Assembly: GCA_022829145.1 (NCBI GenBank)
Contig: CM040750.1
Location: 7,470,755-7,534,754, forward strand
Origin: Albula goreensis
Lineage: Eukaryota; Chordata; Actinopteri; Albuliformes; Albulidae
Reading direction: 5' to 3'
Length of the DNA stretch: 64,000 nucleotides
The translations under genes were made by a program, and so were the position numbers. The notes below the pieces were generated by a model. The model saw only the letters and a program-made list of their open reading frames with translations, did not search any database and had not been told where the DNA came from. Each line of letters begins with the position of its first letter. The stretch's first letter is position 1. Positions 192 to 50,800 of the stretch are shown in pieces.

Positions 192-19856
<19,665 letters not shown>

Positions 19857-21640: not shown

Positions 21641-21689
21641 TTATATTTTAGTTTTTAAAAAAACACAGCAAATGGACTCAGCACAACAA

Positions 21690-21960
21690 ATTGGTCTCAT
21701 TTTCTTACTTACAAATCATATCTGACCAGTTTTTCATCTGTGGGTGGAAAATATAGCGCATTCACTGTCATTTAAATTGAAAAAAGCAAATATTTTTCTG
21801 TCAACAAAATTGTTTTCACTTTCGGAGGTAAGACTATAGTCTTATTTCTTTTCTGGATGTTCACCACAACAAGTGGTTCTCATTTTCTCACTTTCAAATC
21901 ATTTCTCAGCACTTTTTCATCAATGATTGGACAATATTGTCAGTAATACCGTCTGATGCT
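21690..21960 (+). repeat. 183-bp satellite, + orientation (diverged monomers)
   Basis: About one and a half monomers of the satellite that dominates 30-36 kb. They share TTTCTCACTTTCAAATCATT, ATTTTTCTGTCAAC and CGGAGGTAAGACTATAGTCT. Diverged, as expected at the edge of an array. Confidence 0.85.
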
Positions 21961-22784
21961 GTGTTTTTGTTTTTGTTCCCTGTCCATGTGCTTTTGTTTT
22001 TATGCCCCCTTGTGTCTGCCCCACCTTCCTTTTTACCTGCCTAGTTGATTGCTCATTTGTTTCACCTGCCCTGTTGTGCACCTGTGTCTCGTTTGCTCGT
22101 TAGTCTGTGTTTTTAAACCCTGCATTGTGTTTGTTCCATGTGAGTTCGTCTCTGTTTTCCTTGTGACCAATTACGCTATGAGCCTTTTCTCTGTTCTGAC
22201 CTGCCTGTTTTTGCCTGTCTACCCGTTTTCTGATTTTTGGATTCTGTCTCTCCCTGATTGCTGTGTTCACCTGGTTCCTACCTTGCCTGTTTTGACCTCG
22301 ACTCTGGTTTCTGTTTTTGCCCTGTTGCTGTGCTCTCCTGGTTTGACTCTGTGCCTGTTTTTGACCTTGTTTTTGGATTTGCCCTTCACAAACAAACTCT
22401 GGTTTATTTCATCTCTGTCTGCTCCTCTGCCTCCACTGCCTCTGACTGACCCTCTGCCGCAGCCCAGTTCCCCAAAGCCCATGCAGATTGACCACACCCA
22501 CCTCACTCCAGTGCAGCACCAGCACCGCATCAGAGCCCGGGCCTGCCTCTACTGTGGAACCCCTGGCCACTTCAACGAGAACTGCCCATTAAAAACTGGT
22601 GCTCAAGCCACAGCCAGGGGATTGCAGGTGAGCGTAACTCCTATCAATCAGCCATCTAATGTTCGCTCTCTGCTCTGCCTCCCTCGTAGTGGAGGGTGTT
22701 CTCCAGTTGTCTTAGTCCTCCTAGACTCTGGCAACTGATGGGAACTTCATGGATGCTGGAGTTTTAGCCATCACGGGGGCTAAT
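21961..22784 (+). mobile_element. Gypsy LTR retrotransposon fragment (Sushi-like), LTR plus gag/protease stub
   Basis: 21961-22430 is T-rich, LTR-like sequence. 22440-22738 encodes a gag tail with a CCHC zinc knuckle (CLYCGTPGHFNENC) and then the start of a protease with a DSG triad (VLLDSG). The frame is broken right after DSG: a stop follows at 22736, while the next expected residues appear in another frame. The fragment ends abruptly in satellite at 22785, so all of pol is missing. Assignment to the Sushi-type group is inference from the knuckle and DSG protease. Confidence 0.7.
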
Positions 22785-23035
22785 CTCATTTTCTCACTTT
22801 CAAATAATTTCTTGGCACTTTTTCATGAATGGTTGGACAATATAGCACATTTACTATCATTTAAAGTGAAAAAATCTAATATTTTTCTGTCAACCCATTT
22901 TTTTCACTTTTGGAGGTAAGGCTATAGTCTCATGTCTTTTCTGGATTTTAACCACAGCAACACTATTTTCTCGCTTTCAAAGCGTTTCTTAGCACTTTTT
23001 CATGAATGGTTGGACAATATATGACGTTTAATGGA
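22785..23035 (+). repeat. 183-bp satellite, + orientation
   Basis: About one and a half monomers with the same landmarks (TCACTTTCAAATAATTTCTT, GGAGGTAAGGCTATAGTCTC). The second monomer is interrupted inside its ACTATCATTTAAAGTG segment by the DIRS block. The rest of that monomer resumes near 30253. Confidence 0.88.
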
Positions 23036-24521
23036 ATTTAACCTTTCAACCATTCTCAGTCTCCCCACAAGTATAAAAGCGCCACATACCTCATTTCCAA
23101 TCGTGCTCTGTATCTCTGGCATTCCAGTTCGTTGCTGTTGCCTGAACTGCTGCACTCCTAGGTATTCGCCTCAATTTTGCGTCATGGAACTACAGCTCCA
23201 TGCGTCTGACCATGACTTGTCCTACGTTCCAGATTCTGGATCATCAGCATCCCCCGAGTCCGGTGGCTTCCCTGGAGAGTCCAATCGCCCCAGCTTCATC
23301 TCCGGTCTGAGGTCGCTCTCCGACTCGCCGGCATAACCTACGCCCGCTGAGATCCCGAGCTCTTTCTTGGCAGTCACCTCCCTCCTCCTCAACTGCCTCC
23401 AGTCTTCCGAGACAGAACCCCCGCGACAGGGCTACTGCTCCTGTCCGCTCCTGGTCGGCTGTTTGCCGCACTGACGCCGATGAACTGAGCCCGGTCCCCC
23501 CTCCTGCTCCTAAATGGACTGTTTTTCGCCTTCAGCAAGCTCTGAAGTAGCGTGGCGTGTATTTCCCTGGTAACGCGAGAAAACCATGTTGTTTCACCTC
23601 TACCATGACTCCCTTAGCTCAGGGGACCTGACTGTTCCTGCTCACGTCCGGGGAGGACTTGATGACGTCGCTCTTCCCCCAGACGACCTGCGCTAGTGCC
23701 TTGGACAGTCCTTAGCAATGCCTGTTGCTAATACCAGCGCCGTGCTAGCTCATGCTAACGCTCCCCCATTCCTCCCCCTCTCCCCACTGCCGGTTTCCGA
23801 GCAGGAGCCGGAGGGCTCTGTCAGATGCCCTTGGCATCGGTCGCCCCTCCCCTGTACGCTTCCAGTGACCCGGCAGTGTTTCCCTCCATCTTCCCTGGTG
23901 TCGCCGTCCCCTCCGGAGTCGGCGAGCTCCAGCTGGCGCCCGACGCACCAGCTGTCTCGCTACTGCATGCTCCGAGGGACCCGGCACCACTCTCCTCTCT
24001 CCCCAATGCCGATGTTGTTCTGTGAGTCGGCGGACTTTACCTTGCACCCATGTCGTCAGCTGTCGTTCCGCCATTGCACGGTCCCAGGGCTTTGGTCCAG
24101 CCCCCTTTCTCCCCCCTCCCAGCTGCCGCCGTTCAAGCTGGAGCCGGTGGGCTCCATCTGCCTTCCGTGCAGCCGGATGTCCTACCCTGGCAAGCTCCCA
24201 TGGACCGGCAACCCCCCAGCCTCTGCCGCTGCCCTAGCTGGAGAAGGCGGTGCCCGCGCCACCAGCTGTTGTGCTGCCCTGGCACACTTCCGTGGACTCT
24301 GTATGTCCCCCTTCCTCATTGCCCTCTGCCACTGTTCCGGCTGGAGTCAGCGGGCTCCACCTGGCGCCCTACGTGCCAGCTGACCTGCTATTGCACCCTC
24401 TCGACGAACGGCCAGAGCACTCCTATTTCTCCACTGCTGCTGTCTATGCAGGAGCCAGCAGGCTTCAACCTGCTCCCGTGTTTGCAACTGCTACTCGGCA
24501 CAAGACCAGCGGTGGCGGGTC

Positions 24522-25305
24522 ATGCAGCATCAATTCCAGCAGCTCCAGGTTTAGGTTGGAGACTTCTGGGAGGGCGGTGAGGCATCCAGGTCCAGTTCAC
24601 CCCGGGCACCAGCAGAGGGAGGCCGGGAGCCAGGCGTTAAAGAGCCCAAGCTTCACCCACTCACCAAGGACGATGATATTGAGCACTTTTTGACCACTTT
24701 TGAAAGAGTGGCGGCAGTGTGCCGATGGCCAGAGTCAACATGGGCCATTAGGCTGGTGCCGTTGCTCACAGGGAAAGCCCGGAGTGTGTTTGTGGCTATG
24801 GAAATTAGTGACACTGAGGACTATGGCAAGGTGAAAGAGGCCATTTTAAAGAAGTACAACATCAGGGCAGACACGCACAGACACGTACACGTCCGCTCTG
24901 CAGACATTTTGCCAGGCGAGACGCCTCGGGAGCTGTATGTCCGCCTTGGGGAACTTTTAACGAAATGGATTAAACCTGACCAACATTCAGTCAAGCAGAT
25001 CTCAGAGATGATCATCCTGGAACAGTTTATGAACATTGTGAGAACAGACATGGCGATTTGGATTAAGGAGCATGATCCAAAGATGGCAGAGGAGGTGGCC
25101 AGATTGGAGGAGGTCTTCCTCTCAGCATGGCAAGGGACCAGAGGCACTAGCTTCGGCCAGTGGAACCAGGCATCCAGGAGTAAGTCTGATGGGGGTGGTG
25201 AGGGTCGTGGTCAAGCCCAAAATAGGACATTTGTTTCTAGTAGGCGGCCAGATAAGCCTTTTAGACAAGAGGTTAGGTGCTACCATTGTGGGGAGATGGG
25301 ACACT
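24522..25305 (+). pseudogene. Gmr1-like Gypsy gag (SCAN-related), broken
   Basis: Reads from ATG at 24522 (MQHQFQQLQ), hits an in-frame TAG at 24552, and then stays open to a stop at 25305. The central region (HFLTTFERVAAVCRWP, LLTGKARSVF, ADILPGETPRELYVRL) resembles vertebrate gag proteins related to the SCAN domain. It ends in the first half of a CCHC knuckle (CYHCGEMGH), where a small deletion breaks the frame. The second half of the knuckle continues in another frame. No 5' LTR was found. Confidence 0.8.
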
Positions 25306-25885
25306 AGGCCACATTGTCAGGCTAGGAAAACTCAAAACACTGCTATCTGCTATGTACCCCGGCCACACGTGTCTCTTACACCAGACAATCTCACACATCA
25401 GGAGGGAAAGAGAGAACATTTGGTGCAGGTTCTGGTGAATGATCAGGCAGTTAAGGCCCTGGTGGATACGGGTAGTACACAGACGCTGGTGCATGACAGT
25501 TTAGTCTCAGAGGAGTGCAGTGGTCAGGCCCCAGTTAAGGTGTGCTGTGTGCATCAGAACCTAACCAACTGCTGAAATATATCTGACAGTGAATGGCCAA
25601 ACCTTCTTTTTGCCAGTAGCCATAGCACCCCAGCTGCCTTATAATGTTGTCTTAGGACAGGATCTGCCTATTTTATGTGACCTGGTCTCACCGGTGCAGG
25701 AATGTAATGTAGTCACCAGAGCTCAGAGTGCCAGGGAGGATGGAGAAGCATTACCTGTTTCTGTTTCGGTAGTTGAGCTGGATGAGGACAGCAAGCCAGG
25801 GAAGAAGTATCTCCCAAGGCAGGAGAAGCGCAGCCAGAAAATCTGGGGTGGATTTGGAGGGGGTGGAAAAGTTGCCAGAGTCTGA
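25306..25885 (+). pseudogene. Gypsy aspartic protease region, frameshifted
   Basis: The segment to 25575 carries the second part of the zinc knuckle (RPHCQARKT) and a protease core with VLVNDQAVKALVDTGSTQTL, the retroviral-type DTG triad. A second break near 25560-25575 moves the frame. The protease C-terminal part (FFLPVAIAPQLPYNVVLGQD) continues at 25589-25885. Not functional as it stands. Confidence 0.78.
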
Positions 25886-27263
25886 GATTACTCTAGATCA
25901 TGACATTCCTGAGGGTATATCTTACCTGCAAAAACAGGATGATTCTCTTCAGTCATGGTTCCAGAAGGTGACAGAGGTGGATGGAGTGAAGCAGGGGGCC
26001 GGGTTGATGTCGGCAGATGAGAAATACATCTTGAAGAATGGTATCTTGTATCAGGTTAAGGGGAAGGTGGAAGCTATGGCTATACCTAAATCCTTAAGAC
26101 AGACAGTAATGAGACTGGCTCACTCTGTTCCATGGGCAGGACATCTAGGCAAGCATAAAACCCTAGGCAGAATTGCTAGCCAGTTTTGTTGGCCACTGTT
26201 ATATGCTGATGTCTCTGAGTTTATTCGCACATGCACTGAGTGCCAGCTGACATCTGGTAGGATAGTACCACATGCACACCTGCAGCCTCTTCCAATCATT
26301 GAGACACCGTTTGTACGCATTGGGATGGATATAGTGGGGCCCTTGGAGAGAAGTAAGATGGGGAATAGATATATTTTGGTCATTTGTGACTATGCCACTA
26401 AATATCCTGAGGCCTTCCCTCTGAAAACGATCAAGGAAGGAAGACAGGTGGCCAATTGCTTAATACAGCTATTCTCGCGTGTGGGCGTGCCAAGAGAGGT
26501 AGTGACTGATCAGGGTACTAACTTTCTGTCATTGCTGTTGAAACAAGTTTACGGTCTTTTTGGTATTAAGGGCATTAGGACCACCCCATATCACCCCCAA
26601 ACAGACGGGCTGGTTAAACGATTCAATCAGACCCTGAAGAATATGCTCCGTCGCTTTGTCTTGCAGACAGGAACAGAGTGGGACCAGTGGTTGCCATATC
26701 TACTGTTTGCCTACCGGGAGGTGCCACAGGCCTCCACAGGCTTTTTACCATTTGAGCTCCTCTATGGTCGCCAGGTGAGGGGGCCGCTGGACCTGCTAAA
26801 GGAGCTGTGGGAGGGCCCCAAGGAGGAAACGACAAATATGGTGAGGTATATCATTCAGATGAGAGAGAGGTTGGAGGAGATGGCGTCACTGGCATCACTG
26901 GCCCAAGAGTACATGAGGAGGGCCCAAAGGAGCCAGAAGACCTGGTACGACAGGGAGGCCAGGGAGAGGTCCTTTGTGCCGGGTCAAAAGGTATTGCTGT
27001 TGCTCCCCACCCAGGACAGCAAGCTCCTGGCCAGGTGGCAAGGGCCTAATGAGATCTTAAAGAAAGTGGGCTCAGTCACATATGACATTTCCATGCCGGA
27101 GAGGACTAAGAAGAGACAGACTTTTCATGTGAATCTGCTGAAGGAGTTCCATCCCAGGGGTGAACAGGTGGAAACACAGTTTTTCTTTTTTTCCCTTTTT
27201 TTCTTTTTGTGTCTCCTAATATTGGAGCCCTATCGGCACCTGCTGGGATTGTTGGCTCAATAA
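25773..27263 (+). pseudogene. Gypsy (Gmr1-like) integrase; catalytic Glu replaced by Lys
   Basis: An uninterrupted frame of 496 codons, with the frame-true part starting near 25850. The zinc-binding N-domain (GHLGKHKTLGRI ... CTECQ) is followed by an rve core with Asp186 (GMDIVGPL) and Asp246 (VTDQGTNF). At residue 282, exactly 36 residues later, the invariant Glu is Lys (DGLVKRFNQ; codon AAA at 26616). The C-terminal part includes VPGQKVLLLLPT and TFHVNLLKEFHP. The end is followed by a T-rich tract. Integrase follows protease directly, with no reverse transcriptase or RNase H between them, matching the gene order known for Gmr1-type elements. RT/RH are then missing downstream. Confidence 0.85.
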
Positions 27264-27633
27264 ATTGCCATCTTTTTTGCACCACTAAAATTCCTGTTTC
27301 CTGTCTTCATCTTCACCGCGAAGCATAACCATCTCACAGGGTATTGGAGTGCGACGGTTTTACTGTATCCCTTAAGGCTGTTAGTTCCTCCTCCTTAAAG
27401 ATTCTCACATTTCCCGAATATTGTTTGGCCTTCGGCCGCTACATGGACGTAATTATCCAGTTTTTCCCAACCGCCGCAGGGAATTAAATGATTATCTGGC
27501 TATTGTTGCGGATTTAGCTGTCTGCTTCGGTGGTTCGCACTTTTATACTTATCACCGCATGTTTTCAGGTAAGTGCGCTGCCAAAATTGCCCAATTTAAT
27601 GTTTGTCAGTCCTGGGGAGTTTTGGACACTGAT

Positions 27634-28530
27634 CAGGGGTGGGTTTCCCGAAAGCCTCTTAACGCTAAGAACCTCTTTAAATGACTCTTACGATCGCTCT
27701 TAAAATAACGTGGGTTTCCAAAACACGTTCGTAACTAAAGCGTCTCTTTAGTTTGTTCTTAACTAACGACAGATCCAGACCACTCGTTCACAGCAAAGAA
27801 CCATTGTAAGTTCCAGCTTGCAGCCATCCGCTCTTGCAGCGCTCACAATATGCATGCTCTTTCGATGTGTGTGTTTATATATATATGATCATAAATGATC
27901 ATGTAATTACTTTTTCTTAATGAGAAATATGGCTACACCTGTGTAATCTTATAAGGACTTGGAAAACAGTAAATCTTTCTTATGTTCAATTTCATCAAGC
28001 AAGATGAGGATTTCTTCCTTTGTGAATGCTGACTTCCGTGTCCTTTTCCCCTCCATGACCGACTGTCAGGCTCCACATTGCCACATGCCAATTTATTGGA
28101 GCAATCTGGCTCTGGATTGAACAACAATGCAATGAGCAGACAAGGTGAAAGGAGTTTTACTTAATTATTTAGCCTTTTCATAATTATTTTTTATTCATGT
28201 AATATTCGTTGTAATATTTCTATAGGCTTATAGACACTCTGAATCAATTTAGTCAGAGTATGATGGTAACACTGTGTCTTCAAAATATTGTATTTCAGTG
28301 TTGATTGGTTAAAACGAGTGACGTATAACCCCACAGAATCGATTTATGAACTACAAATGCTTAAGCGAGGACGCGCTTGTCAAAGAAGCTCTTTGCAAAG
28401 TTCCTCTTAAAGCCCAGTCTAACGATTGTGTTTGGGAAACCCATGTAACGAGAGAACGTTCGTTGCTTAACAATCACTTAAACACACTCATTAATCCTAA
28501 AATGCAACGTTATCGGGAAACCCACCCCTG
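27634..28530. mobile_element. Non-autonomous DNA transposon (MITE, Harbinger-like), 897 bp
   Basis: Bounded by a perfect 18-bp terminal inverted repeat, CAGGGGTGGGTTTCCCGA, at 27634-27651 and inverted at 28513-28530. Subterminal sequence contains repeated CTCTTAAA/AACGTTCGTTGCTTAA-like motifs. No transposase frame. It interrupts DIRS gag; the minus DIRS copy lacks it at the same point. The target-site duplication is not clear. Superfamily is an inference from the termini. Confidence 0.8.
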
Positions 28531-28910
28531 CACTGTAGAGTTTTCCTCAGTGTAAGGGCAGCAGCGTGCCATGTCTGCAACTCCACTGAACATTCAACCC
28601 GTCTGTGTTCCTTGGTTTCCCCCTCCATGCCCACTCCCACCATTACGTTTCCCAACAAGCACCTCGCCTCTACGGCGCCTGCGCCTGAAGTATTTCCCGT
28701 ACCCGGGAAGTCCGACGTGCGGGGCCGTCCCTTTGTTGTAACCGGAGGAAGGGAGCTGTGTAATAATTTTAATGAATCCTTCTGTACATGAAGTGACTGT
28801 AGGCTTCTCCATGCTTGCAGTTCCTGTGCGGGTGCCCATCCACTCATTGCGTGCCCTGGATCCTGCCGTCCCCCACCCTACAATAAAGCATGACTATTAA
28901 AACTGAAAAA

Positions 28911-30215
28911 TCAGTGTTTTTTCTCAGGGAGGAATCAAAAGGGCCTCTCATAAACCCAGATTAGACTCCTTTGGTTGACCAAGAAATCACTACGGTGGGT
29001 TTGGCGTCGGCAGACTGAAGGTTATTACAGATAACAGAATGGGCAGGTAGTGAGACCAAGCTGGGGGAAAAACCGTTCAAAAGAGTGGTCAGGAGGTATG
29101 AAACAACAGAGAGATCAGGGTGAGTACTGCGTTCAAGTTGGAGTCTGGGGACGTTAACCGGTGTGGACAAATGCTTTAATAGTCATGCTTTATTGTAGGA
29201 AGGGGGATGGCGGGAATCAGGGCATGCGATGAGTGGATGGGTGCCCGTACAGGAACTGCAAGCATGGAGAAGCCCACAGTCACTTTGTGTACAGAAGGAT
29301 TCATTAAAATTATTACACAGCTCCATTCCCCCGGTTACAACAACGGGACGGCCCCGCACGTCGGACTTCCCGGGTATGGGAAATACTTATGGCGCAAGCG
29401 CCGTAGAGGCGAGGTGCTTGTTGGGAAACGTAGTTGTGGAAGTGGGCATGGATGGCGAAACCAAGGAACACAGACGGGTTGAATGTTTGGTGGAGTTGCA
29501 GACATGGCACGGTGCTGCCCTTACACCGAGGAAAACTCTACAGTACAGATCAGTGTCCAAAACTCTCCAGTACTGACAAACGTTAAATTGGGCAATTTTG
29601 GCGGCGCACTTAGCTGAAAACATGCGGTGATAAGTATAAAAGTGTGAACCGCCAAAGCCAACGGCAAAATCCGCAATAATAGCCAGATAATCATTTAATT
29701 CCCTGTGGTGGTTGGGAAAAACTGAACAAATTACATCCGTGTAGTGGCTGAAAGCCAAACAAAATTCAGGAAATGTGAGGATCTTTAAGGAGGAGGAACT
29801 ACCAGCCTTAAGGGATACAGTAAAACCGTTACACTCCAATACCCTGTGTTTGGAAGGTGTAGGTGGAGAGAGTAGAGAAGCTAGGCCGACATTTGCACCT
29901 TGGAGAATCTGGGTCCGTATAGTAGCCGAAACAGGAGTAGGCTCATACAAAGCGGAGATGAAGCTGGGGCAAACGGACTCTCCGGGGAAGCCGCCAGACC
30001 CGGGGTTGCCGATGATCCAGAATCTGGAATGTAGGACAGGTCATTGTCAGTCGCGTGGAGCTGTAGTTCCATGACGCAAACTTGAGGGGAATACCTAGGA
30101 ATGCAGCGGTTCAGGCAACAGCAACGAACTGGAATGCCAGAGATACAGAGCACGATGGGAAATGAGGTACATGGTGCTGTTATACTTGTAGGGAGACTGG
30201 GAATGGTTGAAAGGG
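28911..30215 (-). mobile_element. Truncated DIRS-like retrotransposon, - copy (gag plus start of pol)
   Basis: Inverted partner of the + copy. On the minus strand it starts near 30215 (CCCTTTCAACCATTCCCAG), opens gag at 30072 (MELQLHATD), shifts frame near 29945, carries ELNDYLAIIADFAV and GGSHFYTYHRMFS, meets a stop at 29387, and then the Cys-rich gag end. The second frame begins near 29170 (STPVNVPRLQLE, ICNNLQSADAKP, then GFMRGPF), the start of the DIRS reverse-transcriptase ORF. It breaks off at about 28911, exactly where the + copy ends. Confidence 0.82.
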
Positions 30216-30252
30216 GTTATCTGAAAAGGATTCCCCCGAACTTTGTTAAACA

Positions 30253-30895
30253 AAAACTCAATTTTCGGTGAAAAAATCAAGTATTATTCTGTCAACCCAT
30301 TTTTTTTTCTTTTGGAGGTAAGGCTATAGTCTTATGTCTTTTCTGGATTTTCACCACAGCAAATGGATCTTATTTTCTCGCTTTCAAATCATTTCTCAGC
30401 ACTTTTTTATGAATGGTTGGACAACATAGCACTTTTACTATCATTTAAAGTGAAAAAATCAAATATTTTTCTGTCAACCCATTTTTTCACTTTTGCAGGT
30501 AAGGCAATTGTCTTATGTCTTTTCTGGATTTTCACCAAAGCAAATGGATCTCATTTTCTCAGTTTCAAATCATTTCTCAGCACTTTAACATGAATGGTTG
30601 GACAATATAGTACTTTTACTGTCATTAAAAGTGAAAACCTCAAATATTTTTCTGTAAACCGATTCTTTTCATTTTTTGAGGTAAGGCTATAGTCTTATGT
30701 CTTTTCAGGATTTTCATCACAGGAAATGGATCTCATTTTCTCAATCTCAAATCATTTCTCAGCACTTTAACATGAATGGCTGGATAGTATTGCATATTTA
30801 TTGTCATTTAAAGTGAAAAAATCTAATAGTTTTCTGTCAAACCATTATTTTCACTTTTGGAAGAGAGACTATCATCATATATCTTTTCTTGAATA
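30253..30895 (+). repeat. 183-bp satellite, + orientation (about 3.5 monomers)
   Basis: Monomers of about 181 bp with CTTTTGGAGGTAAGGCTATA, TCTTATGTCTTTTCTGGATT and TTTCACCACAGCAAATGGAT. The array ends where the orientation flips at about 30896-30905, within an A/T-rich spacer. Confidence 0.92.
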
Positions 30896-30899
30896 TGGA

Positions 30900-33800
30900 T
30901 TTTTTTTTTTGAAATGATTGTAAATGAGCTGCACTATCCACCCACATGAGAAAAAGTTCTTATAAATGATTTGAAAGTGAGTAAATGTGATACAAGTATG
31001 GTGCAGAAAATCCAAAAAAGACATAAGACTATAGCCTTACCTCCAAAAGTGAAAAAAAATGGGTTGAAAGAAAAATATTTGATTTTTTTTACATTAAATG
31101 ACAGTAAATGAGCTGTACTATCCACCCACATGAGAAAAAGTTGTTGGAAATGATTTCAAAGTGAGTAAAATAGACATATGTGTGGTGCTGAAAATCCAAA
31201 AAAGACATAAGACTATAGCCTTACCTCCAAAAGTGAAAACAATGGGTTGACAGAAAAATATTTGATTTTTTTTTTTACATTAAATGATAGTAAATGAGCT
31301 GAACTATCCACGCACATGAGAAAAAGTTGTTAGAAATGATTTGAAAGTGAGTAAAAGAGACATATGTGTGGTGCAGAAAATGCAAGAAAGACATAAGACT
31401 ATATAGCCTTACCTCTAAAAGTGAAAAAATGGGTTGACAGAAAATATTTGATGTTTTTACATTAAATGATAGTGAATGAGCTGTACTATCCACCCACATG
31501 AGAAAAAATTGTTAGAAATGATGAGAAAGTGAGTAAAAGAGACATATGTGTGGTGCAGAAAATCCAAAAAAGACATGAGACAATAGCCTTACCTCCAAAA
31601 GTGAAAAAAAATGGGTTGACAGAAAAATATTTGATTTTTTTTTTACATTAAATGACAGTAAATAAGCTGTACTATCCACCCACATGAGAAAAAGTTGTTG
31701 GAAATGATTTCAAAGTAAGTAAAACAGACATATGTGTGGTGCAGAAAATCCAAAAAAGACATAAGACTATAGCCTTACCTCCATAAGCGAAGAGAAATGG
31801 GTTGACCGAAAAATATTTTATTTTTTTTTACATTAAATGATCATAAATGAGCTGTACTATCCACCCACATGAGAAAAAGTTGTTGGAAATGATTTGAAAG
31901 TGAGTAAAAGAGACATATGTATGGTGCAGAAAATCCAAAAAAGACATAAGACGATAGCGTTACCTCCAAAAGTGAAAAAAATGGGTTGACAGAAAATTTT
32001 TTTATTTTTTTACATTAAATGATAGTAATTGAGCTGTACTATCCAACCACATGACAAAAAGGTGTTAGAAATGATTTGTAAGTGAGTAAAAGAGACATAT
32101 GTGTGGTGCTGAAGATCCAAAAAAGACATAAGACGATAGCATTACCTCCGAAAGTGAAAAAAAATGGGTTGACAGAAAAATACTTGATTTTTTTACATTA
32201 AATGATAGTAAATGAGCTGTACTATCCACCTACATGAGAAAAAGTTGTTAGAAATGATGAGAAAGTGAGTAAAATAGACATATGTGTGGTGCTGAAAATC
32301 CAAAAAGACATAAGACTATTGCCTTACCTCCAAAAGTGAAAACAATGGGTTGACAGAAAAATATTTGATTTTTTTTTTTACATTAAATGACAGTAAATGA
32401 GCTGTACTATCCACCCACATGAGAAAAAGTTGTTGGAAATGATTTCAAAGTAAGTAAAACAGACATATGTGTGGTGCAGAAAATCCAAAAAGACATAAGA
32501 CTATAGCCTTACCTCCATAAGCGAAGAGAAATGGGTTGACCGAAAAATATTTTATTTTTTTTACATTAAATGATCATAAATGAGCTGTACTATCCACCCA
32601 CATGAGAAAAAGTTGTTGGAAGAGATTTGAAAGTGAGTAAAAGAGACATATGTATGGTGCAGAAAATCAAAAAAAAGACATAAGACGATAGCGTTACCTC
32701 CAAAAGTGAAAAAAATGGGTTGACAGAAAATTTTTTTATTTTTTTACATTAAATGATAGTAATTGAGCTGTACTATCCAACCACATGACAAAAAGGTGTT
32801 AGAAATGATTTGTAAGTGAGTAAAAGAGACATATGTGTGGTGCTGAAAATCCAAAAAAGACATAAGACGATAGCGTTACCTCCGAAAGTGAAAAAATCGG
32901 TTGACAGAAAAATACTTGATTTTTTTACATTAAATGATAGTAAATGAGCTGTACTATCCACCTACATGAGAAAAAGTTGTTAGAAATGATGAGAAAGTGA
33001 GTAAAATAGACATATGTGTGGTGCTGAAAATCCAAAAAAGACATAAGACTATTGCCTTACCTCCAAAAGTGAAAACAATGGGTTGACAGAAAAATATTTG
33101 ATTTTTTTTTACATTAAATGACAGTAAATGAGCTGTACTATCCACCCACATGAGAAAAAGTTGTTGGAAATGATTTCAAAGTAAGTAAAACAGACATATG
33201 TGTGGTGCAGAAAATCCAAAAAAGACATAAGACTATAGCCTTACCTCCATAAGCGAAGAGAAATGGGTTGACCAAAAAAATATTTTATTTTTTTTTACAT
33301 TAAATGATCATAAATGAGCTGTACTATCCACCCACATGAGAAAAAGTTGTTGGAAGAGATTTGAAAGTGAGTAAAAGAGACATATGTATGGTGCAGAAAA
33401 TCCAAAAAAAGACATAAGACGATAGCGTTACCTCCAAAAGTGAAAAAATGGGTTGACAGAAAATTTTTTTATTTTTTTACATTAAATGATAGTAATTGAG
33501 CTGTACTATCCACACACATGACAAAAAGGTGTTAGAAATGATTTGTAAGTGAGTAAAAGAGACATATGTGTGGTGCTGAAAATCCAAAAAAGACATAAGA
33601 CGATAGCGTTACCTCCGAAAGTGAAAACAATCGGTTGACAGAAAAATACTTGATTTTTTTACATTAAATGATAGTAAATGAGCTGTACTATCCACCTACA
33701 TGAGAAAAAGTTGTTAGAAATGATGAGAAAGTGAGTAAAATAGACATATGTGTGGTGCTGAAAATCCAAAAAAGACATAAGACTATTGCCTTACCTCCAA

Positions 33801-36008
33801 AAGTGAAAACAATGGGTTGACAGAAAAATATTTGATTTTTTTTTACATTAAATGATAGTAAATGAGCTGTACTATCCACGCACGTGAGAAAAAGTTGTTA
33901 GAAATGATTTCAAAGTGAGTAGAAGAGACATATGTGTGGTGCTGAAAATCCAAAAAATACATAAGACTATAGTCTTACCTCCAAAAGTGAAAACAATCGG
34001 TTTAAAGAAAAATACTTGATTTTTTTACATTAAATGATAGTAAATGAGCTGTACTATCCACGCACGTGAGAAAAAGTTGTTAGAAATGATTTGAAATTGA
34101 GTAAAATAGACATGTGTGGTGCTGAAAATCCAAAAAAGACATAAGACTATAGCCTTACCTCCAAAAGTGAAAACAATTGGTTGACAGAAAAATACTTGAT
34201 TTTTTTAAATTAAAAGACAGTAAATGAGCTGTACTATCCACACCCGTGACAAAAAGTTGTTAGAATTGATTTCAAAGTTAGTAAAACAGACATATGTGTG
34301 GTGCTGAAAATCCAAAAGACATAAGACTATAGCCTTACCTCCAAAAGTGAAAAAAATGGGTTGACAGAAAAATATTTGATTTTTTTACATTAAATGATAG
34401 TAAATGAGCTGTACTGTCCACCCACATCAGAAAAAGTTGTTAGAAATGATTTGAAAGTGAGTAAAACAGACACATGTGTGGTGCTGAAAATCCAAGAAAG
34501 ACATAAGACTATAGCCTTACCTCCAAAAATGAAAACAATTGGTTGACAGAAAAATACTTGATTTTATTTAATTAAATGATAGTAAATGAGCTGTACTATC
34601 CACGCACGTGAGAAAAAGTTGTTAGAAATGATTTGAAATTGAGTAAAATAGACATTTGTTTGGTGCTGAAAATCCAAAAAGACATAAGACTATAGCCTTA
34701 CCTCCAAAAGTGAAAAAAATGGGTTGACAGAAAAATATTTGATTTTTTTACATTAAATGATAGTGAATGAGCTGTACCATCCACGCACGTGACAAAAAAG
34801 TTGTTAGAAATGGTTAGAAAGTGAGTAAAAGAGACATATGTGTGGTGCAGAAAATCCAAAAAAGACATAAGACTATAGCCTTACCTCCAAAAGTGAAAAA
34901 AATGGGTTGACAGAAAAATATTTGATTTTTTTACATTAAATGATAGTAAATGAGCTGTACCATCCACGCACGTGACAAAAAAGTTGTTAGAAATGATTTG
35001 AAATTGAGTAAAATACACATTTGTTTGGTGCTGAAAATCCAAAAAAGACATAAGACTATAGCCTTACCTCCAAAAGTGAAAAAAATGGGTTGATAGAAAA
35101 ATATTTGATTTTTTTACATTAAATGATAGTAAATGAGCTGTACTATCCACCCGTGAGAAAAAGTTGTTAGAAATGATTTGAAATTGAGTAAAATACACAT
35201 TTGTTTGGTGCTGAAAATCCAAAAAAGACATAAGACTATAGCCCTACCTCCAAAAGTGAAAAAAATGGGTTGACAGAAATATACTAGATTTTTCTTACAT
35301 TAAATGATAGTAAATGAGCTGTATTATCCACCTACATGAGAAAAAGTTTTTGGAAATAATTAGAAAGTGAGTAAAATAGACATATGTGTGGTGCAGAAAA
35401 TCCAAAAAGACATAAGACTATAGCCTTACCTCCAAAAGTGAAAAAAATGGGTTGACAGAAAAATACCCGATTTTTGTACATTAAATGATAGTAAATGAGC
35501 TGTACTATCCACACACGTGAGAAAAAGTTGTTAGAAATGATTAGAAAGTGAGTAAAATAGACATATGTGTGGTGCTGAAAATCCAAAAAAGACATAAGAC
35601 TATAGCCTTACCTCCAAAAGTGAAAAAAATGGGTTGACAGAAAATATTTGATTTTTTTACATTAAAAGACAGTAAATGAGCTGTACTATCCACACCCGTG
35701 AGAAAAAGTTGTTAGAATTGATTTCAAAGTTAGTAAAACAGACATATGTGTGGTGCTGAAAATCCAAAAGACATAAGACTATAGCCTTACCTCCAAAAGT
35801 GAAAAAAATGGGTTGACAGAAAAATATTTGATTTTTTTACATTAAATGATAGTGAATGAGCAGTACCATCCACCCACATCAGAAAAAGTTTTTAGAAATG
35901 ATATGAAAGTGAGTAAAAGAGACATATGTGTGGTGCTGAAAATCCAAAAAAGGTATAAGACTATAGCCTTACCTCCAAAAGTGAAAAAAATGGGTTGAAA
36001 GAAAAATA
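30900..36008 (-). repeat. 183-bp satellite, - orientation (about 28 monomers)
   Basis: Tandem monomers, read on the minus strand, of 179-188 bp. Landmarks on the + strand are TTACCTCCAAAAGTGAAAA, GGGTTGACAGAAAAATA, ACATTAAATGATAGTAAATG and AGCTGTACTATCCACCCACA. Monomers differ from one another by roughly 5-20% and include a higher-order block (see next entry). Each unit leaves an open frame of about 62-65 codons on the minus strand, which is unlikely to be a gene. Confidence 0.96.
31590..33800 (-). repeat. Higher-order satellite repeat: four-monomer unit of 732-734 bp, three copies
   Basis: Four monomer types recur in fixed order. Type A has CCATAAGCGAAGAG (31781, 32515, 33247). Type B has ACGATAGCGTTACC plus CCACATGACAAAAAGG. 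Type C has CCTCCGAAAGTG. Type D has GACTATTGCC plus AAAACAATGGG. The spacing between A monomers is 734 and 732 bp. The same monomer in successive units is nearly identical, whereas adjacent monomers differ clearly. Confidence 0.88.
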
Positions 36009-36460
36009 TGTTATGAAGGTATAGTTAAGGGTACCCCTGCCATGAAAGTTAGTGGCTAACAACTGCCCTTTTGTTGACTCTCCCATCCATTCAGGATGAA
36101 GGGTGAAAGAGTAATATTCCCTCAATTCCTTTTGTGCCTGTTGGGTGGGTCTCATGACAGTAGACTGAGAGAGAAAAGGGTTGTAGAGTGTTTCTGGCAA
36201 AATCCTATTGGATGACTGAAGGGCAATGAGGAGTGGAAGGCGTTTCTCAGGATGGCATTTAAGGGAAGCTCAGTGATACAGTTGGGGAGCATTGCTTAAC
36301 AAGCTCCTGGTGGCCATAGTAATTTCCAGAACAATGGGGGTGCATATTTTGCTGTTTATCCTTGTCTTGTCAATATTTCTGTGTGTAACATCTTGATGGT
36401 ATAATGGTTACTAATCCTGTGCTCTGCAATAAACATGGTTACATTTTCTATTCACAGTAA
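36009..36460 (+). other. Possible solo LTR inside satellite edge
   Basis: Unique-looking 450-bp segment that begins TGTTATGAAGG right where the satellite monomer is cut and ends TCTATTCACA, with AATAAA at 36429-36434. TG...CA ends and a late polyadenylation signal fit a solo LTR, but I found no clear target duplication and no second copy. Confidence 0.35.
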
Positions 36461-36489
36461 TTCTTCCTATTCATCCTATTTCATCTAGG

Positions 36490-36780
36490 TGTGTGAACCA
36501 GGGGCATCCAGTGTGGCTACTGAGGTACGGAGGCTTTCCAGAGGTTTGTCCCCAGATCCTGCAGCCTATCCTGTTCCGCTGAGTGTAGCCAGACACCACA
36601 GCAGGCTGACTTATGTAAGCACAGGCTGTAGGCAGCCAGACACCATAGCAAGCCCCTGGGTGTAAGCTTAGGTTGCAACAAGTCCCTTAGGTTGTAGGAG
36701 CTGTCAGACACCATGGCAGACCATTAGGGTGTAAGCTTAGGCTTTATGCAGCCAGACACCGCAGCACTAAAAGTGGATTC
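36490..36780 (+). repeat. Degenerate tandem repeat, about 60-65 bp, four copies
   Basis: Copies share GCAGCCAGACACCACAGCA and GGTGTAAGCTTAGGCT with many indels. Confidence 0.75.
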
Positions 36781-36904
36781 CAAAATCATATGAGTGGAAA
36801 TCAATTACTAAATGGCAACATGCAGAGGGCTCATCACAACTGAAATAACTGCAATAAAAACACACATTTGTCCCCTAACTTTCTTCCCTCATAAATTAAC
36901 TCCT

Positions 36905-37325
36905 TACAAGCAAATATTTTTCTTTCAACCAATTTTTCACTTTTGGAGGTAAGACTATAGTCTTATGTCTTTTCTGGATATTCGGCACATCAAATGGATC
37001 TCATTTTCACACTTTCAAATAATTTCTGAGCACTTATTCTTGCATCATTGGATAATATAGCATATTTAGTTTTATTTAAAGTCAAAAAATCTAATATTTT
37101 TTTCAACCCATTTTTTCACTTTTGGTGATATGACTATGGTCTTGGTGGTTTTCATGGATTTTCAGCACAACAAACTGCATTGTTGTGCATTTTATTTACT
37201 CATTCATGTAATTCCTGACAACTTTTCCATGCATGCGTGGATGATATAGCTAATTTAGTACAAGTTAAAGTCAGAAAAAAATCAAATATTTTTCTGTCAG
37301 CCCATTTTTTTCACTTTTGGGCATG
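36905..37325 (+). repeat. 183-bp satellite, + orientation (right edge, diverged)
   Basis: Two to two and a half diverged monomers with CTTTTGGAGGTAAGACTATA and TTTCTGTCAGCCCATT. Confidence 0.85.
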
Positions 37326-37765
37326 GAATTGGGAAAAGTGTATTTCACCCAAAATCAAAAATAGACATAAGACTATAGTCTTATCTCCAAACATGAAAAA
37401 ATAGAATGCTACTAAATTTGTTGTTGTTTTCTCTTAAAATAATAGACAATCATGTGCATTACCTGTTTATGATGGAGAAAGTCATCAGAAACGCTTCCAA
37501 GGGATGGAATTGAGAAAGGTGTAGTTCTCTGTAAATCAAGAAAAGACAGAATGTTGTCTTATCTCCAAAAAGTTAAAAAATGGGACGCCACTCGAATTTC
37601 TGGTTTTATTCTCTTAAAACAATACCGTCATGCATATTACCTGTTTAATGGACAAAGTATTAAGAAATGTCTGCAAGGGATGGCAATGGGAAACGTATAC
37701 ATCTCCGAAAATTAAGACATAAGTCTATATAGTCTCGTTTCCAAAAAGTACAAAAAATGCAGTGA
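37326..37765 (-). repeat. 183-bp-related repeat, - orientation, strongly diverged
   Basis: Three weakly related units with ATAGACATAAGACTATAGTC, TTATCTCCAAA and a following AAAATGGG/AAATAGAA, spaced about 185 bp. They look like old monomers in opposite orientation to the preceding pair. Confidence 0.6.
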
Positions 37766-39630
37766 AATTAATTGGTTGACTGCCAATCAAACTCACCTGT
37801 GCTTTAATGAGCCCACTGCTGTCCATGGTCCTGAATAGCTTCTTGTGTTTTTGGCAGCAGTCAAAACATCTGGGTTCAGACAAAGGGTAGGAGTGCTCCG
37901 AGCACATGTCTCAAATGAGATTCAGTATTTGCAGGTCTGAGTGCATATTTTGTGCTTTGTATCATGAATTAGCATTATTTACTTGAATCTTTTAATTTCC
38001 ATGTTTGTGGATAATGCATTAGAAGCCATTACTCTCCACTGTTTAGCTACATTTCAGTAAACAGATTTCTGTGGAATGCAACAACAGCATCTAGAAAAAT
38101 CTATAAAAAAATACACAACTGATTCACTGCACAACAGCGGATATAATTTGTTTTACATTAAATGTATTGAGACATAACATTAAGTGAAGCAAGTATTACG
38201 TATGAACCATGTACTATTTTATTGGCTTTAATTCTGTTCTTAGTAATGTCACCAGACTCTCATTTCAAAGATAAAAAAAAAAACTGAAAATCTTATTTCG
38301 TAGCACAGACCAGTACAGTACAATATTTACTCCTGTGTCACCCTCTAGTGGACACATGTCAAGTTAAAAATCACCAATTTCCAACATAGCTCAGAATTCC
38401 TTCTTATCAAATGATAATTCTAATTGAGGAAACAGGGTATGATTTGGAACTAGTATAACAAAACACTCATTTAAAGTAACCAATGGTAAGACTGAATACT
38501 TCAGCTGATCAAACTGTACTGTTTGAACGTTGATGTGTTTTATTACTGCATAATTTGAGAAGTAACTGATGATGATGAAGATTTTGAAGCGCGCAGCAAA
38601 ACCCAACATTACAAATGACGGATTATGCTACTTTTGGGTTACTTCGCTAATCGTGCAGTGGGGAGAATGCATGGCCTTCAAGATCGCTCTTTTTTATTAT
38701 TATTATTATTATTTCTGTCTCTATATGTTTGCATGAGAACTTTAAGTCAACATGCCTTTTACAGATTGTTAGGGCATTTCCTTACGCAGGTCAACATTGA
38801 CAGGCATGCCATCAAATTTACCAACAACTGGCATTCGTAATCAAATACACCAGGTGTACGCACAAAGTCGAGGAATATGCACTTTTTATGAGCTTTTTCC
38901 AAGAGCGAAAGTAAGAATTCAAGAAAATATTTGTGAATGAGCCTCGATGAGTCTTTCAAACACCTTTCAAAGAAACAAGAAGTGGAGAAACTGAACACCT
39001 GGCACTGATTATCAGATAGGGAGGGCAGGTATGTGACCCAATACTTCAATCACGACAAGTGTTATGGCATTATCCAATTCAGTGGCAGTCCCGTACAATG
39101 GAGTTGGGGAAAATGAGTCCACACTGGCTTCGATTACATGCACCCCAGTTACCAAATCACAATGCAATTAAGGCAGTAATGCCAGCGAGGTGGAGCTTTG
39201 ACTTTAACTGCGCTACATTTTCACTTTAATCACATTTCTTCCATCCTGGCCAAGTTGCGCTGGTGCAAAAGAGGTCATCGGACATCGGAGATTGCAATTG
39301 GCCTATAAAAACAGCAGCAGCAAATCTTAAATGAGAGCAGGATAATTGTTTCCTGTTGTAGTACAGTCTGCTGCTACCATGTGTTTGTTCTACCTGTGCA
39401 CTAAAACAGGTGGTTTGACTACTTATCTTATCTACCTGGATGAAGAGTTGTGCTAATTTGAATGACGGGTTTAGCACATGGTAGTGCTTTTACTTTCGGA
39501 ACCCGGGGTTCTCCCACCTCTGGCAATGTCGAGATGGAGTGTGTGGAGGGCTGTCACGGGAAGGAAAGTGAAAATCTACGTCTTAACTCGGCGTCAAACA
39601 CACAAAACACAAGAGGATGAGGAAATGATT
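37766..39630. other. Intergenic, no recognised gene
   Basis: Moderately AT-rich DNA without a recognisable coding region. Contains a short (ATT)n run at 38694-38712. Open frames here are short and look like nothing known to me. Confidence 0.45.
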
Positions 39631-47800: not shown

Positions 47801-50800
47801 TTCTTGGTTAATATCAAGGATGGTAGTCTCGTGGCTACTGTTGTCTAGTGGCTAACGTGCATGACCGGAACCCCTGAGGTTGGTCTGTTTGGTTGGCACA
47901 AGCCACAGCAAGAACACCATCGCTGTTGGGCCCCTGAGCAAGGCCCTTAACCATGAATTGCTCCCAGCGGGATTGGCCTCACAGCGGGGATTGGCCCTTT
48001 GTTAGCCTAATCAACTGTATGTCGCTGTGGATAAAAAAGCATCGGCTGAATGACTGTGATGTAATGTACTGCCCCCTGGTGGTAACGTCATGCCTAACTA
48101 AGCAACCGCAGTGTAGAGCAGTGGTTGGAAAAACCAACCAGTGCCCATCTGAAGGTGAACTAAGTAGGTGAAAAGTACAAACTATTGCCCTGGATAAGGG
48201 CATCGACTAATAACTTGACAAATGTACAAACATCAGATGATCAGACGAGTGACTTCACTTGTCCCAGTGACATAATTTACTGGATTAAGATGAAAGCGTA
48301 TGAGTAATTATGCGAGATGATGACTGAATTTATAATTTTATAAATGTTAAATCTGTTCATGCTAGAAGATAATGTTGTAGGTTTTCTCTTCTTATCTTCC
48401 CGGCAGAGTAAGCACTGAATAAATTTGATACTTACATAAAGTGATTAATTTAATAAGGAAATCATTGAATAATTAAAGTGATTATAAGTTTAATAAAGTA
48501 ACAGTGAGTTTAAAGTGAGTTTAACAAAATGATTTATCAGTGAAACTACACAGTGGTTCAATGAGTTGATGACTGTCGACAATCTACTGGCTGACAGATC
48601 GGATCGTACCTCAGACAAGATGGTGGTTTCGTATGATGGCTGATATTTTTCCTTCTCTTGAGGTGAACGTTTCTCCATCTTCTCCCGGTCTGTCTTCTGC
48701 TTCCTGTCAGCCCCTTTCGGCTATTGGATGGAACGCATGATCAACAGGCAAGTATGTTAATTTAGGTACCATCAATACAAAAATCTTTGCATGAAACAAT
48801 ACTGCCAGATATTGTCACTTCAAGAATATTGGCAGAGAATAACAAGCCAGGAAGGGACTCCACAACATGAATATAACCTCCGCTACTTTAAATAATAAAA
48901 CTTTTGCCATTGATTTCAGTATGTTTACATTTAAAGAGCTTTCACACTAATTCTTTAGCCTTGTAAACTTGTCAACTGTAATATCCAAGTCTTTTTCATA
49001 AAGCACAAAATTCCAATTTGCAAGCACTCATGAATTTACAGCACATTAAAAATGTACTACCAACATTTTACAATACACTTGCCCCCAGTTTCACATATTG
49101 CACAGGTGTAATGAGACTCCAAATGACTATGTTCAGTTAATTTGTGTAAATGAAGTAGAAAACAGGTCACAAAGCGAAAAACAACACATAATTAGCTCAG
49201 TATCGTGCTCAGATGCCATTTCTGCAAAGTTAGTTTGTAAAGTCAAGTAATCCACTTTGAAATAACTGCTGATACTTTGAATTGATTTAAATTGCATTAA
49301 TTTGGAAAATTCAAACATAAACTTAACATTTGGCAGTGTCCTGAAAACAGTAGGGTTTTTTGGGCATGGTCCCTCTCTGTGGAACCAATATTGATGACAT
49401 CTTATACTAAGCTTTATAAGCAAGCCATTGCCCCTGAATTCATTTTATTTGGGTTTAGGTTGGTAAATGGGGATATAATTGATTTTGTTTGCCTGTAAAT
49501 GTGAATTGTGTGGAACGGGAAAATAAAACAGTGTTAACTGCCAATTGTTAATTGGTTCCGCCCACCTTGAACACCTTGATTTGGCAGCTGGCAGAGTGCA
49601 GGTGGTCGGTGTGCTCTCCGTTCTCGTTCTGCTTGAAAGTGTCGATCTGGATGCGGAAGGGCACGCCCTTCTCCCCGCCGTGCTTGCGGGGGGTGAACTC
49701 CGTGCTGATGCAGTGCACCTGCGTCACAGAAACACAGACGGTCAGGTGCATGGAGGTGTAGCGTGGAAACCGAGGCATTCTTACCAATGACTCTCAACGG
49801 TAAATCTAAAGCTAAATCTACCCTAAATCCAAACATAAATCTGCCCTGTCTATACATGTGGATAGAGTTCCACATTAACTCACATTTATCTGCGCATTAG
49901 CACGAGTCATGCCAGTATAGTGATATACAGCATAAAAAGGGAATACTGAATAGTGATACAGACCATGAACAGATGGGAACGTAGTCCCATCTGATAAATC
50001 GAACATGGAACCCAGCAATAGCATCCTGACAACTATAAATGTTCTAAATCTCTGCAACCACCTCTCCATGGAAACACCAAACGCAACTGTTCACATGGCA
50101 ATACAGAAACGCATTTTTTCTTTTATTACCAACTGACATATATTCATGACACAAATAGAACTAAAAACTATTTCTCTAGATAGTAAATATCCATACTAAC
50201 TTAATGCTGAGTATATTTTTATCATTCTGTAATAGTTTAGTCAGCATTTGCTTACCAAGGTAGCTGGCTAAATATGAGATGGGTAATGCGAAGAGCTGAA
50301 GTACCTGGACGAAGGCAGAGGTTCGTTTGGAAAGGTCCCACAGGAACTCCACAGCGTTGAGTTGTGAGGGGTTGGTCTTGGGGTCAATGATGCCCACAGA
50401 CATGGGGATATCTAAACGGGAGGCAGAACAGAGTCTTTAAGGTGATAATACATAGGGCAGTTTTCCTTTCACTTTCCTCTCCCACAGTCTGCTCACAGCC
50501 AATCTCACTGTCTCACTTAAGCCCCACCCATCTCATACAGCTCCTCCCACTCTCTCATGGACCTTACCCATGTCCAGGAGACGGTCGCCAGGGCGATTCC
50601 ACTTCCATCCCTCCAGCTGCTGGTGCTCCATGTACTGCAGGCGGCGGTCGTGGAACACCACCCGCACAATGCTCTGGGTCGACAGGACCGAACAGAACGG
50701 AAATTACATACAACTTCTTAAAAATTACTTGACATCAGAAAACAGTAAAACACATTTAGGACTGGGCCAAATCAGAACATTAAACATTTAGAACTAGGAT

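Follow-up and report, generated by a model that had tools for sequence, protein, structure and literature searches.

A three-copy tetrameric higher-order repeat in a dispersed short-array satellite family of the fish Albula goreensis

Higher-order repeats (HORs) have been described as the simultaneous amplification of adjacent satellite monomers (PMC5615363) and are widespread in animals and plants (PMC4053949). Short satellite arrays in euchromatin have been reviewed in PMC10048060, and TCAST of Tribolium is one such system (PMC3411249). The window analysed here, a stretch of 64,000 nucleotides of Albula goreensis DNA (C10:7470755-7534754), holds a satellite array of 28 monomers in which one block of four monomers stands in three near-identical copies. 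This one small array shows an intermediate stage on the way from a simple satellite to a higher-order array, and its surroundings point to a staged history, comprising an old inverted subfamily, an in-register transposable element (TE) insertion, ~9% drift among monomers and a tetramer tripled at 0.5-1.4% divergence.

The main array and its tetrameric block

The main (P-type) array occupies positions 30898-36009 of the window on the forward strand and consists of 28 head-to-tail monomers of ~182 bp, as established from a monomer table and by TRF (period 182, 28.0 copies). When TRF was run with a longer period limit, a period of 734 bp outscored that of 182 bp (8137 vs 7961). Four monomer types, A, B, C and D, follow one another in this order in exactly three copies in a row (31642-33841, forward strand), copy 1 spanning 31642-32376, copy 2 32377-33107 and copy 3 33108-33841. 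The anchors of the four types (A at 31658, 32393 and 33124; B at 31843, 32576 and 33310; C at 32025, 32759 and 33492; D at 32208, 32940 and 33674) are spaced 731-735 bp apart within every type, in agreement with the A-to-A spacing given in an earlier note on this DNA.

Monomers of the same type are 96.7-100% identical (mean 98.9%), vs 86.8-91.8% (mean 89.9%) for monomers of different types, the mean over all 28 monomers being 91.1%. The same holds for whole tetramers, which share 98.6-99.5% of their sites, vs the 86.8-91.8% between types. Copies 1 and 2 differ at 7 of 729 aligned sites (0.96%), copies 1 and 3 at 10 of 731 (1.37%) and copies 2 and 3, the least diverged pair, at 4 of 730 (0.55%). 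None of 20,000 permutations of the monomer order matched the observed mean lag-4 identity or the longest lag-match run, and in a tree of the 28 monomers A, B, C and D each formed one clade (support 100/99, 100/98, 100/99 and 98/97, respectively). The earlier note had described four types in fixed order, with same-type monomers near-identical and neighbours distinct, and had named a monomer tree beforehand as the refutation test; anchors, identities, permutations and the four separate clades of that tree (support 98-100) all speak for its description.

The ABCD order is absent from the four monomers that precede the tetramer block and from the 12 that follow it. The HOR thus amounts to a triplication and not to a long higher-order array, its unit being repeated three times rather than many times in a homogeneous array. 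A reading as local expansion, one of those offered in the earlier note, fits the HOR itself. Recent exchange has left two further signs in the main array, namely a pair of 99% identical monomers eight monomers apart (m19 and m27) and a trio formed by m21, m23 and m24. As a separate observation, the hexamer CACGTG is present in 6 of the 28 monomers (m17, m18, m21, m22, m23 and m26; all within 33842-35475) and CACATG-like forms are present in many of the others, which suggests CpG decay; the observed/expected ratio of CpG is 0.32 in the array and 0.39 in the window.

Older relatives, inserted elements and neighbouring genes

Older diverged relatives, mostly inverted, surround the main array over 21.7-37.8 kb of the window, the outlying ones having been found by masked self-comparison. 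Closest to the main array on its left lies an S-type array of 3.4 monomers, inverted with respect to it (30268-30892, reverse strand; TRF 30268-30889, inverted repeats, strand map). Further to the left are two diverged S fragments of ~1.4 monomers each, also on the reverse strand, one at 21678-21940 (82% identical to 30351-30611; 0.81 to the P consensus) and the other at 22783-23041 (86% identical to 30367-30629), which is the left part of an interrupted monomer. To the right stand an S-type fragment of slightly more than two monomers (36908-37320, reverse strand) and the most diverged relatives, P' (37320-37790, forward strand), with a period of ~181 bp and 73% identity to each other. The S and P arms are ~75-80% alike. 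In a tree of the window's monomers P formed one group (95/94), P' another (100/100) and S one group weakly (73/0), and in the rest of the window, outside ~21.66-37.8 kb, the best match to the family was 25 bases long (E 0.007).

The interrupted S monomer is split by a TE block (23042-30267) with inverted ends (23042-23304 vs 30214-29953, ~90% alike), open reading frames (ORFs) with SCAN (E 2.8e-19) and integrase-type domains (H2C2, 3.3e-18; rve, 9.3e-9), and a MITE-like insert (27634-28530) with perfect 18-bp terminal inverted repeats. Deletion of 23042-30267 fuses position 23041 to 30268 and yields a continuous S monomer, and when 182 offsets were tried for this join, the 12 that scored best were all within 6 bases of exact phase. 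Since removal of the block restores the S monomer in register, the satellite is older than at least one TE insertion at this locus. The right inverted arm of the block measures ~1.04 kb, and the left one is broken by the SCAN and integrase ORFs and the MITE-like insert. An in-register insertion of the same kind at 21941-22782 was considered and rejected, the joined ends (21940/22783) being out of phase. Between the P array and the right S fragment lies a non-satellite insert (36010-36907), at whose borders there is a 17-bp exact mirror of satellite sequence (35993-36009 / 36914-36930); a part of it (36088-36767) recurs beside the family's array on C14 (L025:1639-2401) in pieces of 82% and 92%, in the same orientation relative to the array.

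Two genes flank this region, which we take to be enpp2 and ubp1 on the basis of short protein words present in their translations rather than of a database match. The stop codon of enpp2 lies at ~19.85 kb on the forward strand and exons of ubp1 are seen at ~48.7-50.4 kb on the reverse strand; as enpp2 ends on the forward strand and ubp1 is on the reverse, the satellite lies between the 3' sides of the two genes. The distance of ~11 kb to enpp2 given in the earlier note is right for the main array but not for the family, whose nearest fragment comes as close to this gene as 1.8 kb from its stop codon.

Minisatellites with periods of 28-56 bp are unusually many in and around the genes (2042-2566, 5415-6213, 7702-8393 and 12245-13526, with further ones at 14921-15325, 15740-16258 and 60056-60611), and two LINE tails that are 74% alike are found at 18536-18736 and 47838-48057, the first of which matches Rfam UnaL2 (RF00436). 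A coding function of the monomer was rejected because its 182 bp do not divide into whole codons, and so was an RNA function, as Rfam gives for the whole window only UnaL2 at 18683-18736, outside the arrays, and a tRNA search gave none.

A dispersed family with a conserved part

The assembly (931.9 Mb, 208 contigs) was searched for relatives by similarity, which may favour shared monomer parts, and at least 22 arrays were found on at least 10 chromosomes (C5, C6, C9, C10, C12, C14, C15, C18, C22 and C24), both counts being lower bounds, as each search scored 7-16 of its 282-513 candidates. The P query found arrays on C12 (three sites), C24 and C5 (two sites), and among the first-look candidates that were scored (7 of 502) no match of at least 500 bases outside the window exceeded 89%. 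The S query (16 of 513 scored) added C10 (6.36, 7.19 and 7.71 Mb), C5 (35.16 and 37.66 Mb), C6, C14, C15, C18 and C22 (two); its closest relatives among the matches scored lay on the same chromosome as the window, at 6.36 Mb (87%) and 7.19 Mb (85%) of C10. A query from C22 (9 of 282 scored) added C9, C6 at 2.83 Mb, C15 at 29.83 Mb and C22 at 22.19 Mb. The earlier note had proposed such a search, with a single locus pointing to local origin; the single-locus reading is rejected, as the three queries together find the family on at least ten chromosomes.

Dispersal in short arrays was evident from the stretches fetched around matches, 17 of 18 of which held the family (the other, L015, a continuation of L014, held no family member). 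All 17 showed TRF periods of 178-182 bp and their arrays were ~0.6-8.6 kb long, the longest whole array measuring 8.6 kb and those in L019 and L022 running past the ends of the stretch. Some arrays have multi-monomer periods of their own, with 545 bp scoring 11421 vs 3979 for 182 bp in L010 and 363 bp scoring 4273 vs 4129 for 182 bp in L022. Lag runs of at least two HOR copies were present in 6 of the 17 arrays, and four types in the window's array only. In a tree of 66 monomers from across the genome, the locus labels need 17 changes (minimum 15, shuffled mean 53), and subfamilies are shared within the chromosome sets {C10, C12}, {C5, C22, C6} and {C14, C18}. The window's P monomers do not form one group genome-wide and are mixed, with weak support, with those of C10 at 7.19 Mb and C12 at 3.23 Mb; some inter-locus exchange or shared descent is therefore possible.

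All 22 scored arrays lie 1.74-7.71 Mb from a chromosome end, corresponding to 4.6-19.6% of the contig, on 10 of 10 chromosomes, and where a chromosome has more than one array (6 of 10) these are always on one side. Under one uniform zone per chromosome the probability of this placement is ~9e-5, a post hoc value for scored arrays only, and independent uniform arrays reproduced it in none of 200,000 trials. Nineteen samples of 1.2 kb taken from C10 between 6.0 and 8.4 Mb contained short-period repeats only and no family member, gap or long satellite. Of 20 chromosome ends read, three (those of C6, C10 and C12; L030:1-2000 being the C12 end) carry a different, homogeneous satellite of 172 bp with telomere-like CCCTAA motifs, in all three cases opposite the 182-bp-family arrays. 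This 172-bp satellite was also found at 49.8-50.1 Mb of C2 and on C28, C46 and C143 (10 of 201 scored) and is a candidate for a satellite associated with telomeres or centromeres here.

A 75-bp part of the monomer stands out by its constancy (in monomer A of copy 1, for example, 31758-31832 on the forward strand; pattern GACATAAGACTATAGNCTTA with 2 mismatches). Within the window, 14 fixed sites separate P from S over 100 columns, vs a single one over the remaining 81 (Fisher test, 0.0019; permutation with scan correction, 0.033). Among the 17 array consensuses, for which monomers were cut by a fuzzy match to the first 25 bases of this part that favours columns 0-24, the mean minor-state fraction falls to 0.026 over the best 75 columns in a row, vs 0.142 elsewhere, a value that none of 5000 permutations reached, and all 17 agree in 106 of 181 columns. 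When monomers were cut again without the core, columns 0-74 differed at 2-6 sites and columns 75-180 (106 bp) at 23-30 sites in seven between-clade comparisons, and a within-clade pair (the window and L010) gave 1 and 8, respectively. The mean mismatch within arrays is 0.054 in columns 0-24, 0.065 in columns 25-74 and 0.110 in columns 75-180, columns 25-74 being more variable than the rest in 3 of 17 arrays (the first array of L016, L017 and L019). Comparison of fixed with polymorphic columns in three clade pairs gave p values of 0.10, 0.40 and 0.015, so that selection on the 75-bp part is suggested and not shown; reduced mutation, inter-locus gene conversion and detection bias are the alternatives. 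The part starts with a near-palindrome, and the window contains 26 matches to ATAAGACTATAGTCTTAT (at most 3 mismatches) vs 0.04 expected, an excess to be expected for any repeated sequence. A perfect 18-bp palindrome, ATAAGACTATAGTCTTAT, is found at 37367-37384, in the most diverged monomer, and nearly all monomers of the main array have at least 2 mismatches to it.

Origin of the tetramer and comparison with known systems

A centromere at this locus is unsupported: the family's arrays extend over a few kb, and it is another satellite, that of 172 bp, that is found at chromosome ends and on high-numbered contigs. In place of the long arrays of a centromeric satellite (tens of kb to Mb), no whole array exceeded 8.6 kb, with two running past the fetched stretch. 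The strict CENP-B box was found on neither strand of the window, nor was a version with up to 2 substitutions found on the forward strand of 30268-36009; the box is not universal in centromeric satellites. The Sparidae centromere motif, (A/T)CTGAAA(A/C)(G/C), is absent from 30268-36009 and occurs 10 times elsewhere in the window, vs 7.04 expected by chance. A centromere code of non-B DNA or hairpins was rejected as well, as five monomer stretches folded as DNA gave z values of -0.09 to 1.40, with no excess. The earlier note's suggestions of a seed or a neocentromere-like patch are without support, given arrays of a few kb, scored matches confined to C5-C24 and none of the 19 C10 samples in long satellite. 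What is seen in the window's array fits the usual evolution of repeats better than a centromere, and an HOR alone is no marker of one.

Our preferred explanation, which we regard as quite probable, is that the locus belongs to a dispersed AT-rich satellite family of short arrays (monomer ~181 bp), and that a young three-copy HOR arose here by local unequal exchange, with no need of centromere function. We infer unequal exchange as the mechanism, together with the order of events and the absence of centromere activity. An older S stretch at the locus would have diverged and then been split by TEs, and the P subfamily, in opposite orientation, would have formed an array of 28 monomers, exchange being too slow to keep these from drifting ~9% apart. 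A recent out-of-register exchange may then have tandemly duplicated one four-monomer block, and a second exchange, made easier because the two new copies were nearly identical, may have given the third, such that a long quiet drift was followed by a short burst of exchange. In simulations scored for a three-copy HOR of at least 3 monomers, one appeared under steady-state neutral evolution in 2 of 831 in-band snapshots when exchange was uniform, in 0 of 369 when it preferred homology and in 1 of 215 in a first version. When the real array minus copies 2 and 3 was subjected to a few homology-preferring exchanges, up to 100 of 1500 runs produced such an HOR, which had period four in 90 of them. 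A slow phase followed by a burst is favoured because the steady neutral simulations seldom give a three-copy HOR, though even the favourable runs do so in at most ~7%. If neutral substitution is taken to proceed at a few per billion sites per year, the copy divergence of 0.5-1.4% would place the HOR, very roughly, at a million years of age. Free local drift does not explain the placement in one zone or the conserved 75-bp part.

Alternatively, the family may consist of pericentromeric relics or outposts that flank, or once formed, centromeres near one chromosome end, its HOR stemming from centromere-type homogenisation. The confinement of 22 scored arrays to one end zone on 10 of 10 chromosomes (~9e-5, post hoc), the sharing of subfamilies within chromosome sets, as interacting centromeres can do according to a medaka study (PMC5705604), and the 172-bp satellite at the opposite ends of C6, C10 and C12 (1 in 8 by chance) would all suit such a history; we nevertheless give it a small chance, considering how short the arrays are (longest whole 8.6 kb), the absence of long satellite from all 19 samples of C10 6.0-8.4 Mb, the occurrence of scored matches only on C5-C24 while the 172-bp satellite is also on C28, C46 and C143, and the array's lack of a CENP-B box, Sparidae-type motif or folding excess. 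The earlier note's suggestion of a relic fits in part, as the S-type flanks are old, diverged and TE-interrupted. An improbable reading would have the family be a functional chromosomal element, a putative protein-binding platform (pericentromeric, or related to pairing or replication) in which the 75-bp box is kept, arrays are zoned and HORs are by-products of upkeep; if the 75-bp constancy and one-zone placement hold genome-wide, they would make the family a candidate, open to testing, for a sequence-specific chromosome element in a fish.

Carriage by a mobile element, with the satellite as the tandem-repeat or inverted-arm part of a foldback- or Helitron-like transposon, would account for the inversion of the P array and the S fragment around the 0.9-kb insert with its 17-bp exact mirror, for the recurrence of insert sequence beside the C14 array and for the inverted neighbours also seen at C10 7.19 Mb (L022: +, +, -, +), and transposon-like elements with inverted TCAST monomers are described in Tribolium (PMC3411249). 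We judge it very unlikely, since among 19 stretches (the window part and L009-L026) flanks of at least 150 bp at E 1e-10 were common to two pairs (window-L025 and L009-L025), far from shared termini or flanks at many copies, and since the S arm is not closest to the adjacent P monomers (74.5% vs 76.8% for the best match elsewhere). Least credible of all is that an assembler inflated a shorter array into the tetramer triplication: three near-identical copies of 0.73 kb are a known hazard, but every copy is marked by substitutions and poly-T lengths private to it, and other arrays of the family have their own multi-monomer periods. Three copies with private differences likewise disfavour a simple false haplotype duplication.

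Six monomer words of 15-16 bases had no occurrence in the open literature (5.39 million papers), no match was recognised among the papers listed on eel satellites, 182-186 bp satellites and conserved boxes, and nothing matching the satellite was found in plasmid, viral-contig and prokaryote-genome collections, as expected for animal DNA. The EcoRI centromeric satellite of Sparidae (187 bp, PMC12731029) is a fish satellite of similar monomer length, but its consensus motif is missing from 30268-36009. Alpha satellite and other HORs (PMC4053949, PMC5615363) resemble the window's array in having multimers far more alike than neighbouring monomers and types that fall into separate clades, whereas they form long homogeneous arrays and the block seen here has three copies in a 5-kb array and no centromere evidence. 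The macro-dyad satellites of Tribolium (PMC13081366) likewise comprise adjoining subarrays of one family in opposite orientation; here, however, the structure spans a few kb, its arms come from different subfamilies that are ~75-80% alike, and it lies outside any known centromere. A large heterochromatic source array was not seen in our non-exhaustive search. Like short euchromatic arrays such as TCAST (PMC10048060, PMC3411249), the family has arrays of a few to tens of monomers that are dispersed over chromosomes, near genes and TEs, and, unlike them, the arrays found here keep to one zone per chromosome and include a three-copy tetrameric HOR.
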